Virus record (IMG/VR): IMGVR_UViG_3300031227_000545 | Coordinates: 1 to 20,484 of that record | Length of the DNA stretch: 20,484 nucleotides | Reading direction: 5' to 3' (one strand) | Source of the DNA: a virus | Shown: one piece after another, positions 4,255-20,441 of the stretch | Layout of the letters: every line of letters begins with the position of its first letter | Position numbering within the stretch: the stretch's first letter is position 1 | Notes under the pieces: generated by a model | Databases searched by the model: none | Seen by the model: the letters and a program-made list of their open reading frames with translations, nothing else | Told to the model about the DNA's origin: nothing | Made by a program: the position numbers and the translations under genes

Positions 4255-4289
4255 AAAAGTATCAGATAATCTATGCTGAGGGATTATGA
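4251..4289 (+). CDS. 12-codon mini-ORF bridging to the radical SAM gene
   Basis: ATG 4251 overlaps the preceding stop (ATGA) and encodes MKKYQIIYAEGL; its TGA at 4287-4289 overlaps the ATG (4286) of the radical SAM gene. The double ATGA arrangement means ribosomes ending one gene can step through this peptide to the next. It may be a translational coupling device or leader peptide rather than a functional protein. Confidence 0.45.
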   Translation: MKKYQIIYAEGL

Positions 4290-5137
4290 GAATATTGAGA
4301 GTATTCCCAAGAAAGACAAATATGCAACCGCAAGATGATTATGCCTTTGTAGGTGATCCCCCGATGATGAGACCTGAAGCTGATGAGGTTCATATATCGG
4401 TTATCTTTACTTGGGACATAGCAAAGGCAGAGAAATTAAGATTAGCTTGGCAACAATATTATCCAGTTGTAAAGATTGGGGGGCCAGCCTACGCTAGCCC
4501 TTGTGATGAATTTACTCCTGGGATGTATATAGCTTCGGGTATTATCTTTACAAGTCGAGGATGTAACAATAATTGTTCTTTTTGTTTAGTGCATCAACGA
4601 GAAGGGAATATTAAACTCCTTCCTGTTACCAATGGATACATGATTAACGATAATAATCTTCTCCAGACAGGCAAAAAGCACATGGAAGAAGTATTCAATA
4701 TGCTGAAAAGCCAACGCAAGGCAGCTATATTCGCTGGAGGGTTTCAAACATCTTTGGTTGATGATTGGGTTGCAGAACAATTAAGGGGAACTAGAATCAA
4801 AATGGTGTTCGTAGCTTCTGACACGATAGAGTCTCTAAAACCCTTGCAAAAAGCAACAAGTAAGTTGTCCTTCCTACCCCGTAGGAAATTACGTTGCTAT
4901 ATGTTACTTGCCTATAAAGGGGAATCAATAGATACTGCAAAGGGGCGATTAGAAGAAGCATGGGGGATGGGCTGTATGCCCTTTGCTCAATTATACCAGC
5001 CTCCAGGGAAATACATTGATTATTCAAAGGAATGGAGGGATTTAGCTAGGAAGTGGTCAAGGCCAGCAGCTATGGTGTCTTCTCACAAACAATCGGGTAA
5101 TGAAGTAGATAATGATATAGATTCGAGGATTACTTAA
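4286..5137 (+). CDS. Radical SAM protein with a shortened B12-domain-like N-terminus, 283 aa
   Basis: The cluster motif is SRGCNNNCSFC, with C93, C97 and C100 in the canonical CxxxCxxC spacing that binds the [4Fe-4S] cluster used to cleave S-adenosylmethionine. Other features fit the fold: DNNLL at about 122-126, AGGFQTSLVDDWVAEQL at about 150-166 and a late YQPPGKY. Before the cluster, residues about 34-70 (DEVHISVIFTWDIAKAE ... VVKIGGPAYA) resemble the last strands of the Rossmann-like domain of B12-binding radical SAM enzymes, but the cobalamin-ligating DxHxxG motif is absent and the domain is too short. The substrate is unknown; methylthiotransferase-like, modified-base or peptide chemistry cannot be told apart. 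It lies between nucleases and a helix-turn-helix protein, reached through a 12-codon mini-ORF at 4251. No maturation partner is nearby. Confidence 0.85.
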   Translation: MRILRVFPRKTNMQPQDDYAFVGDPPMMRPEADEVHISVIFTWDIAKAEKLRLAWQQYYPVVKIGGPAYASPCDEFTPGMYIASGIIFTSRGCNNNCSFCLVHQREGNIKLLPVTNGYMINDNNLLQTGKKHMEEVFNMLKSQRKAAIFAGGFQTSLVDDWVAEQLRGTRIKMVFVASDTIESLKPLQKATSKLSFLPRRKLRCYMLLAYKGESIDTAKGRLEEAWGMGCMPFAQLYQPPGKYIDYSKEWRDLARKWSRPAAMVSSHKQSGNEVDNDIDSRIT

Positions 5138-14984: not shown

Positions 14985-16133
14985 ATGGAGATGATGAAAC
15001 TAATGGAGGACTGGAATGGCTTTACAGCCCTTTCAGAAGTCCAGCGCGGTGAGGGCTATGAGCAGAAGCTGAAGGAAACTATCGACCTGCTCAGTAACGC
15101 CCAGGGTTTACCCTCACACAAACACGAATATCTTTTGAAGGAAGCGCTGACTACTTCAGACTTCCCCTATCTGTTCGGTGATGTCCTGGATAGGCAGGTT
15201 CTGGCTCAGTATAAAGCCACTGAATCTACCTGGAAGAAATATATCAAGACATCTACCGTTCCCCGTGTCTTCCCGCAGATTGGCGGGTATAGATTCGCCG
15301 TAACTGGTGGAGACCAGCGCCTGGCAGAAGTCGCTGAGAAGGGCGAATACCTTGCCAGCGACCGTAATGAGACCAAATATACCCTTTATGTCAAAAAGTA
15401 TGGTCGGCAGTTCGACATCTCCCTGGAAACCATGATAAATGATGACCTGGGAGCGTTAAAGAACACACCGATGTTGTTTGCCAAGGCTGCATTACGAACA
15501 GAGCAATATTTGGCTATCAACCAGTATGCAAGCGACACCGGGACTCATGCGGCTGGTAATCTATACGATGATGCTACCGCAGGAGAAATCAACGGCTCTG
15601 TTGCCTTACTAACCATTGCTAATCTTGAAGCAGGGCTTGAGGCGATGGCCAGTTGGACGGATGCTGGTGGAAGCCCGATAATGAACAGGGCAAAATACCT
15701 TGTTGTCCCTCCGGCACTTGAGATGACTGCTCGTCAAATCTTGACCTCAGCGACTAAGCAGTGGATGGAACTTGGTGGTGCTGGTGGCCCACTCCCCTAT
15801 CCTACGACTAACGTTGTGGCACAGATGGGATTAGAGTTAATCGTGGAACCCTGGCTGCCAATATGCGATGACAATACCGATGGTGATACTTCGTGGTATC
15901 TGTTCGCTGACCCCAATGACATTGCGGCTCTTGAGGCTGGATTCCTTCGAGGCCATGAACGCCCTGAGATTTGCATGAAGGCTTCTGACAAGGTAACTAT
16001 TGGTGGTGGAGCAATCGGCCCGATGTCCGGGGACTTTGCTACTGATAACATCTTCTATCGAGTTCGGCACTTCTTTGGTATAACCGAGCTTGACTGGAGA
16101 GCTACCTATGCAGGTGGACAAGTCAACGCTTAA
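14985..16133 (+). CDS. Major capsid protein, Mu gpT-like HK97 fold, 382 aa
   Basis: This is the shell-forming protein. Visible parts include an N-terminal helix region (residues 1-70), STVPRVFPQIGGYRF, KKYGRQFDISLETMINDDLG (about 138-157, strongly typical of the Mu-type major head subunit), a large A-domain with NRAKYLVVPPALEMTARQIL, and a C-terminal FADPNDIAALEAGFLRGHER followed by FFGITELDWRATYAGG. Length of 382 is in the normal range for HK97-fold capsids. ATG 14985 follows GGAGG at 14973-14977. Its neighbours (protease-scaffold, decoration protein) fit. A GC-rich hairpin lies 30 bp after the stop, possibly stabilising this abundant mRNA. Confidence 0.92.
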   Translation: MEMMKLMEDWNGFTALSEVQRGEGYEQKLKETIDLLSNAQGLPSHKHEYLLKEALTTSDFPYLFGDVLDRQVLAQYKATESTWKKYIKTSTVPRVFPQIGGYRFAVTGGDQRLAEVAEKGEYLASDRNETKYTLYVKKYGRQFDISLETMINDDLGALKNTPMLFAKAALRTEQYLAINQYASDTGTHAAGNLYDDATAGEINGSVALLTIANLEAGLEAMASWTDAGGSPIMNRAKYLVVPPALEMTARQILTSATKQWMELGGAGGPLPYPTTNVVAQMGLELIVEPWLPICDDNTDGDTSWYLFADPNDIAALEAGFLRGHERPEICMKASDKVTIGGGAIGPMSGDFATDNIFYRVRHFFGITELDWRATYAGGQVNA

Positions 16134-17300: not shown

Positions 17301-17717
17301 ATGGCTCAAACACAAGTAGTCACAGATTCTGGAATTTCTGAACTAATTTTACTTTGGAGAGAAGAACTCGCAACAGGCATGGAGAGCATAGTTGCCTTAA
17401 ACATGGCCACACCATGCACGGCAGTAGTAGGCTCAACTTATGCTGACCCTGCTGATACTGCTACACATCACACGGATGGCGGACTGGCAATCCAAGCAAT
17501 AGATACTGTTGGCGGTGCTACGGTCAATACTGCTGGTGATACAATTACATTTGACCATGTACTAACAGTAACAGCCACTAAGAACGTAGCAGGTATTCAC
17601 GTTTGCAATAACGATGATGACGTGGCTTTCATAGAGTGCTGCTTCAATGCGGTACTAGCTATGGAAAACACGGACACCCTGACCATTGACGGACAGAGCA
17701 CTATAAACCAGGCATAG
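17301..17717 (+). CDS. Small beta-sandwich structural protein, 138 aa
   Basis: ATG 17301 has CGGAGG at about 17286-17291. After an N-terminal helix (SGISELILLWREE) the protein is beta-rich, with Ala/Thr repeats and a closing AVLAMENTDTLTIDGQSTI. The pattern of DTITFDHVLTVTATKNVAGI, a hypervariable-looking loop, then a NTDTLTI ending, is one I know from phage virion proteins of the decoration or tail-fibre type. I cannot name the family. A weak terminator follows at 17726, so it is the last gene of this block. It probably sits on the surface of the particle. Confidence 0.7.
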   Translation: MAQTQVVTDSGISELILLWREELATGMESIVALNMATPCTAVVGSTYADPADTATHHTDGGLAIQAIDTVGGATVNTAGDTITFDHVLTVTATKNVAGIHVCNNDDDVAFIECCFNAVLAMENTDTLTIDGQSTINQA

Positions 17718-17786: not shown

Positions 17787-18104
17787 ATGAAAGCTAAAAT
17801 CAGAGACATAGGCTTCAGTCCAGATAAAATTGTTGTTGGGGCGGATATGTTCTTTGAAGAAGGCGAGGCTGGTTATGACCAGTGCTGGGTAGATGTGCCC
17901 GATAGACCAGCAACCTATGAAGGTGAAATAGTTCCTACTCATAAGGAGCTTGTGCCTTTCAGAAGCATATCTATTAGTCTGCCGATTGATGCTACCAAGC
18001 AACAGGCTATAGATGTAGTCAAGGCAAAGCTAGAGGCTTTTAAGAGGGCGCACGACAAAGTAGCTGCTGCACAGCAGTGGGTAGGGACAGAACTAAAGCT
18101 GTGA
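17787..18104 (+). CDS. Hypothetical protein before the repeat protein, 105 aa
   Basis: ATG 17787 has AAAGGAGG at about 17773-17780. The protein starts with a beta segment (KAKIRDIGFSPDKIVVGADM), has a polar middle, and ends in a helix (KQQAIDVVKAKLEAFKRAHDK) with AAAQQWVGTELKL. I do not know the family. The closing helix could be part of an oligomerisation or chaperone role for the long protein coded just after it (8-bp gap), which is a guess from proximity. Confidence 0.7.
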   Translation: MKAKIRDIGFSPDKIVVGADMFFEEGEAGYDQCWVDVPDRPATYEGEIVPTHKELVPFRSISISLPIDATKQQAIDVVKAKLEAFKRAHDKVAAAQQWVGTELKL

Positions 18105-18112
18105 GGAACTAA

Positions 18113-19792
18113 ATGTCAACTCTATACGAATACTATAACACTGGTGATAGTAGTTATAGAATAATACGTGGAAGTAACTGGCGAGCACAAACCTTTACGC
18201 CAGCAAATGCTCATACGATTACCAGTGTTAAACTGTTACTGTATCGTGCAGGCTCACCAGGAACAGTTACGGTAAGCATTAGAGATACTGATGGTAGTAG
18301 TCATCCTAACGGCGAGGATTTATGCTCTGGCACTACTAACGGCAATCTTCTTACCGAAGACACTGGTGGACTCTGGTATGAAATAACTTTAGGTGCTGGC
18401 TCTAACCTTAATGCCGATACCAAATATGCCATTGTAATAAGAGCACCATCTGGGGACGTCTCTAATAGCGTTAGGTGTAGATTTGATAGCAGTTCTCCAA
18501 CTTACGATGGGGGCTCTGAAGAATACAGCAGCAACTCAGGCTCAAGCTGGACTACTTACTTGGGGGGCGACCTTATGTTTGAAGAGTGGGGAGACCGAGC
18601 ACCAGTAAACTACCCCATATCTTTATTACCAGGATTAACGGCATCATCTACAATCGCATATAAGGCGGCTTGGGATAGGGGGACCTCCCCAGGACTGACT
18701 ATAGCGGCTACTGTACTTAAAGGCTGGGGTAGAGCAATCGCTACATCTTGCGGTTTAGCTATCTCTGCTACACTAGATAGAGTATTGACTTTCACAAGGG
18801 CTTCTTCAGCAGGACTAACGATATCGTCAGTAATAGATAGGGTTCTTACTTTCACAAGGGCTATTTCTGCTGGCTTAACGGCCTCCGCTACTATAGATAG
18901 AGATGTGGCTTGGGACAGGGGAACGAGTGCAGGATTATCAATAGCCGTATCTATAGCAAGGTCTATGGGTAGAACGATAGCTACTGCAACTGGTCTGACG
19001 GCTGCTGTCTCTATAGTTAGGGCTACGGGTAAGAAGTTCACAGTCACTACAGCATTGGCAGTAAGTACAGCAATAACTAAACAGATAGCAATAACCAGAG
19101 CCACAACCACTGCTTTGAGGGTGTCTGCCACTATATCAAGGGCCGTGACTTATACTAGGGCTTCAATTGCCAATCTTACTATTGCCATTAGTATAGTGAA
19201 ATTGTGGAGTAAGACAATTGCCACGTCTCCTGGTTTAACAGCGAGTGCTACCGTTCTAAAGGGCTATGGCAGGGCAATTGCAACATCTACAGCACTGACT
19301 ATAAATACCGTTATAACTAAGCAAGTGGCGTTTAGTAGGGCAATTCAGACAGGACTGACAATCTCAGTTAGTTTGGTAAGGTCTTGGACTAAGATAATCA
19401 CTACCTCCACAGCACTGACGGTAAATAGTATTATAGCGAAGCAGGCGGCTTTCATAAGGGATGTTAGCACAGGCTTAACCGTAGCCGTATCCGTAGCGAG
19501 AACTGTTAGCAGGACAGTAATAACATCTACTGGGCTGGCAGTTAGTGTGACTCTTGCCAGAACAATTGGCCGGTTGAGAACCATGTCAACCAGTCTAGCG
19601 GTTTCCGTGTCTATAGTAAAAAGGTTTAACAGACTGGTAACTATCTCTACAGGATTAACTATATCCGTGATTGTTGATATCTGTATAGTTTTACGTGACC
19701 TGCTCAGGCTGCCCATATCACGATTAAACCAGACAAGGCTTTTACCGTCACGGATGAGTATTTACAGGCGGATAAGGAGATGTTTTAAATGA
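18113..19792 (+). CDS. Repeat-rich surface protein with a lectin-like N-terminal domain, 559 aa
   Basis: ATG 18113 follows GTGAGG. Residues about 1-160 form a jelly-roll-like domain (NWRAQTFTPANAHTITSVKL, GTVTVSIRDTDGS, WYEITLGAGSNLNADTKYAI, SWTTYLGGDLMFEEWG) that I recall from cell-surface and fibre proteins of uncultured Chloroflexota; carbohydrate binding is likely but not shown. Residues about 171-530 are 18 tandem repeats of exactly 20 residues (see the repeat entry). The last 29 residues are strongly basic (RLPISRLNQTR ... YRRIRRCFK) with eight or more Arg. It lies between the capsid block and the head-tail connector, so a head fibre is as plausible as a tail fibre. It is acid-poor and basic in the repeats. 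Antisense frames here are open only because of the repeat composition. The next gene overlaps by 4 bp. Confidence 0.75.
   Translation: MSTLYEYYNTGDSSYRIIRGSNWRAQTFTPANAHTITSVKLLLYRAGSPGTVTVSIRDTDGSSHPNGEDLCSGTTNGNLLTEDTGGLWYEITLGAGSNLNADTKYAIVIRAPSGDVSNSVRCRFDSSSPTYDGGSEEYSSNSGSSWTTYLGGDLMFEEWGDRAPVNYPISLLPGLTASSTIAYKAAWDRGTSPGLTIAATVLKGWGRAIATSCGLAISATLDRVLTFTRASSAGLTISSVIDRVLTFTRAISAGLTASATIDRDVAWDRGTSAGLSIAVSIARSMGRTIATATGLTAAVSIVRATGKKFTVTTALAVSTAITKQIAITRATTTALRVSATISRAVTYTRASIANLTIAISIVKLWSKTIATSPGLTASATVLKGYGRAIATSTALTINTVITKQVAFSRAIQTGLTISVSLVRSWTKIITTSTALTVNSIIAKQAAFIRDVSTGLTVAVSVARTVSRTVITSTGLAVSVTLARTIGRLRTMSTSLAVSVSIVKRFNRLVTISTGLTISVIVDICIVLRDLLRLPISRLNQTRLLPSRMSIYRRIRRCFK
18623..19702 (+). 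repeat. 18 tandem 60-bp units coding 20-residue repeats
   Basis: Units start every 60 bp from 18623 with no insertion or deletion. The typical unit is (T/S)S(T/P/A)GLT(I/A/V)(S/A)x(T/S)(I/V)x(R/K)xxxxxR(A/T/I)(A/T). Units 2 and 11 are nearly identical (TSPGLT..ATVLKG.GRAIA), and units 3 and 4 share DRVLTFTRA. The second half shows two flavours: aromatic-basic (such as WGRAIA) and Q/V-aromatic-R-A (such as TFTRA). Strict length suggests a beta-solenoid in which each unit is one turn. Confidence 0.9.
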
Positions 19793-20118
19793 GCGCAACA
19801 TACGATATTACTACTAATGTCGGCAAGGTTCGCCTGTTAATTGGCGATACTATCTTAGCTGATTATAAATTCACCGATGAGGAAATAGGAGTCTTCCTGT
19901 CTAATAATTCAAATAACATAAATCAGGCTGCTGCCGAGGCTTTAGAAGCATGGGCTGCTTCTTATGCCACCAATGCTGATAGTGAGCACATCGGCGACTA
20001 TTCCTATACCCAAAAAGTAGTTGCGAATATGCTTTCATTGGCTGCGAAACTTAGGGAGAAGGATGTTTCAACTCCTGTGTTTGAGTGGTCTGAACCTGAT
20101 TATGCTGATACAGAATGA
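19789..20118 (+). CDS. Head-tail connector (gp6/adaptor-like), 109 aa
   Basis: ATG 19789 overlaps the previous stop (ATGA). The sequence fits small phage head-tail adaptors of the HK97 gp6 / SPP1 gp15 type: VGKVRLLIGDTILADYKFTDEEI, a short turn, then two helices (INQAAAEALEAWAASYATNA and YTQKVVANMLSLAAKLRE). Such proteins form a ring below the portal. Its order before a head-closure-like protein and a gp10-like start supports the call. The length is normal for the family. Confidence 0.85.
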   Translation: MSATYDITTNVGKVRLLIGDTILADYKFTDEEIGVFLSNNSNNINQAAAEALEAWAASYATNADSEHIGDYSYTQKVVANMLSLAAKLREKDVSTPVFEWSEPDYADTE

Positions 20119-20441
20119 GCTACGATAGTTTATTGATACATACTTGTACTGTCCAGAGATATACTGAAGGTGTTGCTGATGGATATGGCAATCCTGTTCT
20201 CGCATGGGCTGACCATTTAACCAATGAACCGTGTAGATTGACTTCAAGTAGTGGCAGGGAAATCAAGGTCGGTGCTGAGTTGGTTATTGCTGACTATAAA
20301 CTCTTTATCGGGGATGAAGATATTACTGAACAGGATAGAGTTGTTATATCAGGAATCACTTATGAGGTTCTTTTAATTCAGGAGTATGCAGATGATTCCA
20401 CCAGTCATCACAAACAATGCTGGATGAGGGTGAGCCGTTGA
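20115..20441 (+). CDS. Head closure / head-tail joining protein, 108 aa
   Basis: ATG 20115 overlaps the connector stop (ATGA). The beta-rich pattern is that of SPP1 gp16 / HK97 gp7-like head-tail stoppers: SLLIHTCTVQRYTEGVADGYGN at the start, EPCRLTSSSGRE in the middle, ADYKLFIGDEDITEQDRVVI and then YEVLLIQEYADDSTSHHKQC near the end. The protein would seal the head after packaging. Size is typical. The next gene starts within its stop. Confidence 0.85.
   Translation: MSYDSLLIHTCTVQRYTEGVADGYGNPVLAWADHLTNEPCRLTSSSGREIKVGAELVIADYKLFIGDEDITEQDRVVISGITYEVLLIQEYADDSTSHHKQCWMRVSR

Follow-up and report, generated by a model that had tools for sequence, protein, structure and literature searches.

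The DNA analysed here (the window) is the whole of the 20,484-base virus record IMGVR_UViG_3300031227_000545, whose source is environmental DNA alone and which belongs to a tailed virus of microbes. It contains a gene for a 559-residue protein in which a head, a junction, a repeat stalk and a basic tail follow one another. The product is probably an exposed accessory fibre or decoration protein on a siphovirus-like virion: a modular adhesin in which exchangeable heads of a glycan-binding-like type sit on a beta-rich stalk of 20-residue repeats. Virion adhesins with modular heads are a known kind of object. As far as the searched libraries show, the repeat family is undescribed, and so is the pairing of heads with stalks in both directions, and a limited literature search found no paper describing such arrays.

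The gene, its neighbours and its repeat array

Analysis of the window with Pfam and PHROGs identified genes for a terminase, a portal, a protease and an HK97-type capsid protein. The features relevant to the array gene are the following (L numbers denote other viral loci or contigs):

14985-16133, plus strand: major capsid protein (Pfam PF25209, 7.7e-42; PHROG head matches)
17301-17717, plus strand: small conserved gene 5' of a variable slot (18 loci; slot contents compared)
17787-18104, plus strand: small conserved gene immediately 5' of the array gene
18113-19792, plus strand: head-stalk protein gene, 559 aa (ORF; identical in L002, L003 and L004)
18113-18598, plus strand: N-terminal head, choice-of-anchor R domain; beta-sandwich with lectin/CBM-like fold
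18608-18622, plus strand: junction motif NYPIS, conserved start of the stalk module
18623-19702, plus strand: stalk, 18 units of 20 residues (the end of unit 18 overlaps the C-terminal tail)
19679-19789, plus strand: C-terminal basic tail, pI about 11.7 (alike in L077, L078, L087, L090 and L097)
19789-20118, plus strand: probable head-tail adaptor, immediately 3' of the array gene
20115-20441, plus strand: head completion protein/Hc1 (PF05521, 5.3e-07; PHROG Hc1/head-tail adaptor families)

The array gene is placed after the capsid genes and before the probable adaptor/Hc1 pair, inside the capsid-neck module, as is expected of a phage head decoration protein gene. The preliminary description had spoken of a surface protein; if that is read as a protein of a cell, it is corrected here to the product of a structural gene of a tailed virus, in all likelihood exposed at the virion surface. 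The gene at 19789-20118 matched PHROG 1732 (2.8e-11), where function is unassigned, and weakly a head-tail adaptor family (phrog_4931, E=0.017); its counterpart adjoins the array gene in L077, L078, L087, L090 and L097. A homologue of the gene at 17787-18104 adjoins the array gene in L027 and L030 (70% and 79% identity). L004 is a longer contig with the same sequence as the window across the overlap compared. Downstream of its Hc1 gene lie genes of gp10-like, terminator-like, tail-tube-like and tape-measure-like type (these names are our reading of the ORFs), and the genome is therefore siphovirus-like.

Three further observations were made in the window. Among named viruses, the archaeal Methanoculleus virus Blf4 has the capsid protein closest to the window's (14985-16133), with 39% identity; the product of 4286-5137 carries a CNNNCSFC motif and is possibly a radical SAM protein; and the gene at 456-1211 contains, at 824-947, two short tandem repeats in its DNA, of 23 bp x 2.7 and 11 bp x 3.

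The array itself was found as first described: 18 in-frame units at 18623-19702, each exactly 60 bp, without a single indel. Self-comparison of the protein gave an identity of 0.326 at lag 20, against 0.099 +/- 0.015 in shuffled sequences (2000 shuffles, maximum 0.159), and self-comparison of the DNA gave 0.437 at lag 60. Identity between neighbouring units is 33% in amino acids and 44% in DNA. The 18-unit array was missed by Tandem Repeats Finder because its copies are too diverged. The number and order of the units could have been an assembly artefact; this was discarded, since the array is base-for-base the same in the three further public contigs L002, L003 and L004. The minus strand has long antisense ORFs inside the array, at 18610-19131 (173 aa) and 19345-19716 (123 aa), which probably arise from the codon pattern of the repeats.

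The units are basic, as had been noted: beyond unit 5, units 14 and 18 alone contain acidic residues, and the pI of the array is 11.9. Leucine is found at position 5 and isoleucine, valine or leucine at position 11 in all 18 units, and arginine or lysine at position 13 in 16 of them; basic residues keep to set positions in the repeat (13, 17, 19) and are not clustered. Two proposals on a higher order did not hold. The half-unit flavours, in the order ABAAABBAABBABABBBA, are no more alternating than chance (p=0.40), and a nine-unit super-period, compared with permuted unit order, gave p=0.07 for lag 9 alone and 0.31 across all lags; no unit lag of the window array, lag 9 included, exceeded permuted order. 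Units 2 and 11, described as near-copies, are 85% identical in protein and only 61% in DNA, and are therefore not the result of a recent copy.

Where two units share a residue, its codon is also the same in 34% of cases, against 30% expected from codon usage, a saturation that excludes a recent DNA expansion in the window array. As the units are diverged and their synonymous codons near random, the 20-residue register is kept by selection at the protein level and not by recent DNA duplication. The array is old, and its protein pattern has been maintained.

Relatives of the stalk were located with a repeat query and with the small upstream gene (17301-17717), which served as the query for locating the slot in other viruses. 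Related viruses carry the same stalk in the same gene slot. A junction query added hardly any further relatives, so the family is small in the collection searched. The number of units varies across the 12 proteins, the main arrays having about 2 (L095) or 5 to 19 units, and the repeat spacing is 20 nearly everywhere, with few exceptions of 21, 22 or 23. L082 and L098 show recent two-unit duplications of about 120 bp. L098 and L099, from two samples, are collinear (98.5% over 3 kb), so that these two strains show no difference in unit number. Short two-unit chains produced by segmentation inside LamG-type inserts and tails were set aside as chance.

The head domain and its probable exchange

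Residues 12-150 pass the NCBIfam model NF041539 (46.9 bits against a cut-off of 30, E 2.8e-12), and a search with this domain yielded 53 viral loci. The name choice-of-anchor R derives from cellular proteins with sorting anchors; the cellular members often carry a C-terminal cell-surface sorting signal, which the domain call does not require. The window head belongs instead to a virus structural gene with a repeat stalk, and inspection of its C-terminus by eye revealed a basic tail and no evident cell-wall anchor or sorting signal.

PDB sequence searches gave nothing usable for the head or the array. An AlphaFold2 model of the head (alignment of 42 sequences) reached a pLDDT of 96.8 and was compared with solved structures by VIA-align. 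The best matches were a phi812 baseplate domain (Z 19.6), a PBCV-1 capsid protein (Z 15.9), the lectin-like domain of Cwp84 (Z 15.5), the tail tips of mycobacteriophages Douge and Bxb1 (Z about 14) and a cyanophage A4 capsid chain (Z 12.3). "Lectin-headed", the term of the preliminary description, is fair at the level of fold. By its fold the head may bind carbohydrate, a fold that is also that of many domains that are not lectins. The description's wider proposal of an N-terminal binding-type domain on a regular repeat stalk agrees with a choice-of-anchor R head above cut-off followed by the array.

The junction motif, [DN]YPI[SN], is present in all 12 stalk proteins. The mean pairwise DNA identity is 0.29-0.35 upstream of the motif and 0.69 from the motif onward, a sharp module boundary. 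The heads on this one stalk in the 12 viruses fall into at least eight groups without BLAST similarity between groups at 1e-3: anchor R (window), L077/L097, L078/L090, L079/L087, L083/L089, L091, L093 and L095. L090 has a capsid protein 85% identical to that of the window (part compared), an unrelated head, and 5 units against 18. In L077 and L079, related inserts (44%) are located between array segments and were matched by DUF2341 and LamG models, respectively.

The converse was observed as well. Over 469 residues the heads of L091 and L036 are 44% identical, and the L036 stalk belongs to a different repeat class. In 21 of the 47 loci tested, a significant repeat array lies beside the anchor R domain; the periods run from 14 to 24, most commonly 20, and the sequences are mostly unrelated. 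In L007 the head is in the same position and the array is absent. By hhalign, the L027 repeats showed a weak link to the window's (probability 32-57%) and the other stalk classes none; one common fold for all stalks is therefore not claimed. In several of these classes beta periodicity is absent or mixed. Their spacing deviations are mostly of 2 (19/28), which is suggestive of beta parity and ambiguous. A full-length alignment of the different architectures was left out, as it misplaced repeats.

These loci have other contents of their own. In L049 (4705-7695) an anchor R domain lies between long poly-serine stretches, which are not ordered repeats. In L007 (37-1988), genes for an FkbM methyltransferase and a family 2 glycosyltransferase are located immediately 5' of the array-less anchor R gene, and their products possibly modify host or virion glycans. 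In the variable slot of L093 (4802-5416), a 204-aa product shows a below-cut-off resemblance to a caspase domain (Peptidase_C14, E 0.005), which is unusual in viruses.

We tentatively propose that this undescribed stalk could serve one lineage of uncultured tailed viruses as a universal socket. Beta-rich heads would join it at [DN]YPIS or slot between its units, heads would also move onto unrelated stalks of similar period, and host-binding range would evolve by module exchange with the virion-attachment end untouched. The locus offers a clear natural case of what is probably a combinatorial viral adhesin: a single stalk family bears at least eight heads within one gene slot, one head occurs on a variety of stalks, and the boundary in the sequence is sharp. 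The question of how tailed viruses swap host-contact modules thus becomes testable at a single locus.

Probable fold of the stalk and proposed placement on the virion

As the preliminary description had supposed, the 20-residue repeat belongs to no named family among those searched: the array was unmatched in Pfam, PHROGs and PDB sequences. In NCBIfam the one hit to the array was NF033849, a serine-rich protein model; it gave 34.6 bits against a cut-off of 650 and was rejected as a compositional match.

An AlphaFold2 model of nine units as a monomer was all-beta, with about two strands per unit, at low confidence (pLDDT 41). Hydrophobic residues alternate along the array, with a 180-degree z of 7.5 for the window and 4.2 for L078 when the hydrophobic-only pattern was used. 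A moment computed with the Eisenberg scale, in which arginine carries a strong weight, showed an alpha-like z of 3.8 and lacked a beta signal; the beta assignment therefore rests on the hydrophobic-only pattern. The stalk is likely to have beta structure and may be a beta-solenoid or another beta stalk. A trimeric shaft of the triple beta-spiral type, in place of a monomeric beta-solenoid, is a possibility of some weight, though we consider it doubtful; it would also fit an accessory virion fibre. The small residue or glycine before the conserved leucine, the alternating hydrophobics and the two predicted strands per unit are compatible with such a shaft, whereas the array has no sequence match in the PDB and the period of classical trimeric shafts is shorter than 20.

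The basic C-terminal tail is conserved only among the relatives whose array gene precedes the head-tail adaptor, as expected if the tail is the docking end. A C-terminal frameshift was considered and rejected: the -1 frame gives AQAAHITIKPDKAFTVTDEYLQADKEMF, whereas the basic tail of frame 0 is conserved in L077, L087, L090 and L097, and frame 0 is therefore real.

The main rival to a position at capsid or neck is the same head-stalk protein on the tail tip or baseplate, as a receptor-binding or minor tail protein. It is the main rival because anchor R proteins of other lineages adjoin tail genes and one repeat class is of the mycobacteriophage minor tail type: an anchor R and repeat gene precedes tail-like genes in L027 and L030, and the L030 repeats hit PHROG 13352 (2e-62), a family of mycobacteriophage minor tail proteins. 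The best fold matches of the head are to baseplate and tail-tip proteins, and in the L078 contig a second gene (L015), 3' of the tape-measure region, encodes an anchor R domain. Against this, in the window and in L077, L078, L087, L090 and L097 the array gene is immediately 5' of the adaptor/Hc1 pair and away from tail-tip genes, and we regard a tail position as unlikely for the window protein. Given the anchor R domains beside tail genes in relatives, some lineages may carry the protein on the head and others on the tail.

An internal head protein, associated with DNA or scaffold and using the array as a DNA-binding element, could account for the pI of the array, the basic tail and the location among head genes. 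Lectin-like and LamG-type domains are, however, unexpected inside a capsid, the heads vary as exposed adhesins do, and the basic residues follow repeat position rather than clusters, which makes this reading very improbable. That the array is low-complexity or decaying sequence without constant structure is scarcely credible, in spite of the diverged units and the uncertain structure model, given the strict positions 5, 11 and 13, the near-random codons under a strict protein pattern and the few indels across the family.

We favour the exposed accessory fibre or decoration protein. Its basic tail, constant in the lineage, would anchor the protein to the particle at capsid or neck, and the repeats would form a regular beta-rich stalk pointing outward, with a length set by unit number. 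The N-terminal beta-sandwich would be a glycan-binding-like tip that may aid attachment of the virion to its host or to polysaccharide at a surface. As a standard holder, the stalk would have its heads swapped at the [DN]YPIS junction, and some relatives have a further lectin-like domain inserted between array segments.

Accessory virion proteins with glycan-binding domains have precedents in T4 Hoc, SPP1 gp12 and the HFTV1 turrets (PMC7602432, PMC12494034); the head of the HFTV1 turret has a galactose-binding-like domain for which adhesion to host glycans was proposed (PMC12494034, PMC7602432). The head decoration and head-fibre proteins T4 Hoc, phi29 gp8.5, SPP1 gp12 and the HFTV1 turrets are likewise accessory proteins with binding domains. 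Their stalks are Ig-like, coiled-coil or collagen-like, and they have neither a 20-residue array of the window type nor head exchange; their likeness to the window protein implies no homology. The Cwp84 and phi812 domains share the fold of the window head over 148-155 residues, at 10-21% sequence identity. The mycobacteriophage minor tail proteins of PHROG 13352 carry SAEAFG-type repeats about 20 residues long (20-23 in L030, where they follow an anchor R head); in L030 (2755-3717) these repeats are common to 52 mycobacteriophage records and Virus Rctr197k (DAMO enrichment). Their sequence is unrelated to that of the window repeats (hhalign probability 0 for L030 against the window, whose array has no PHROG match).
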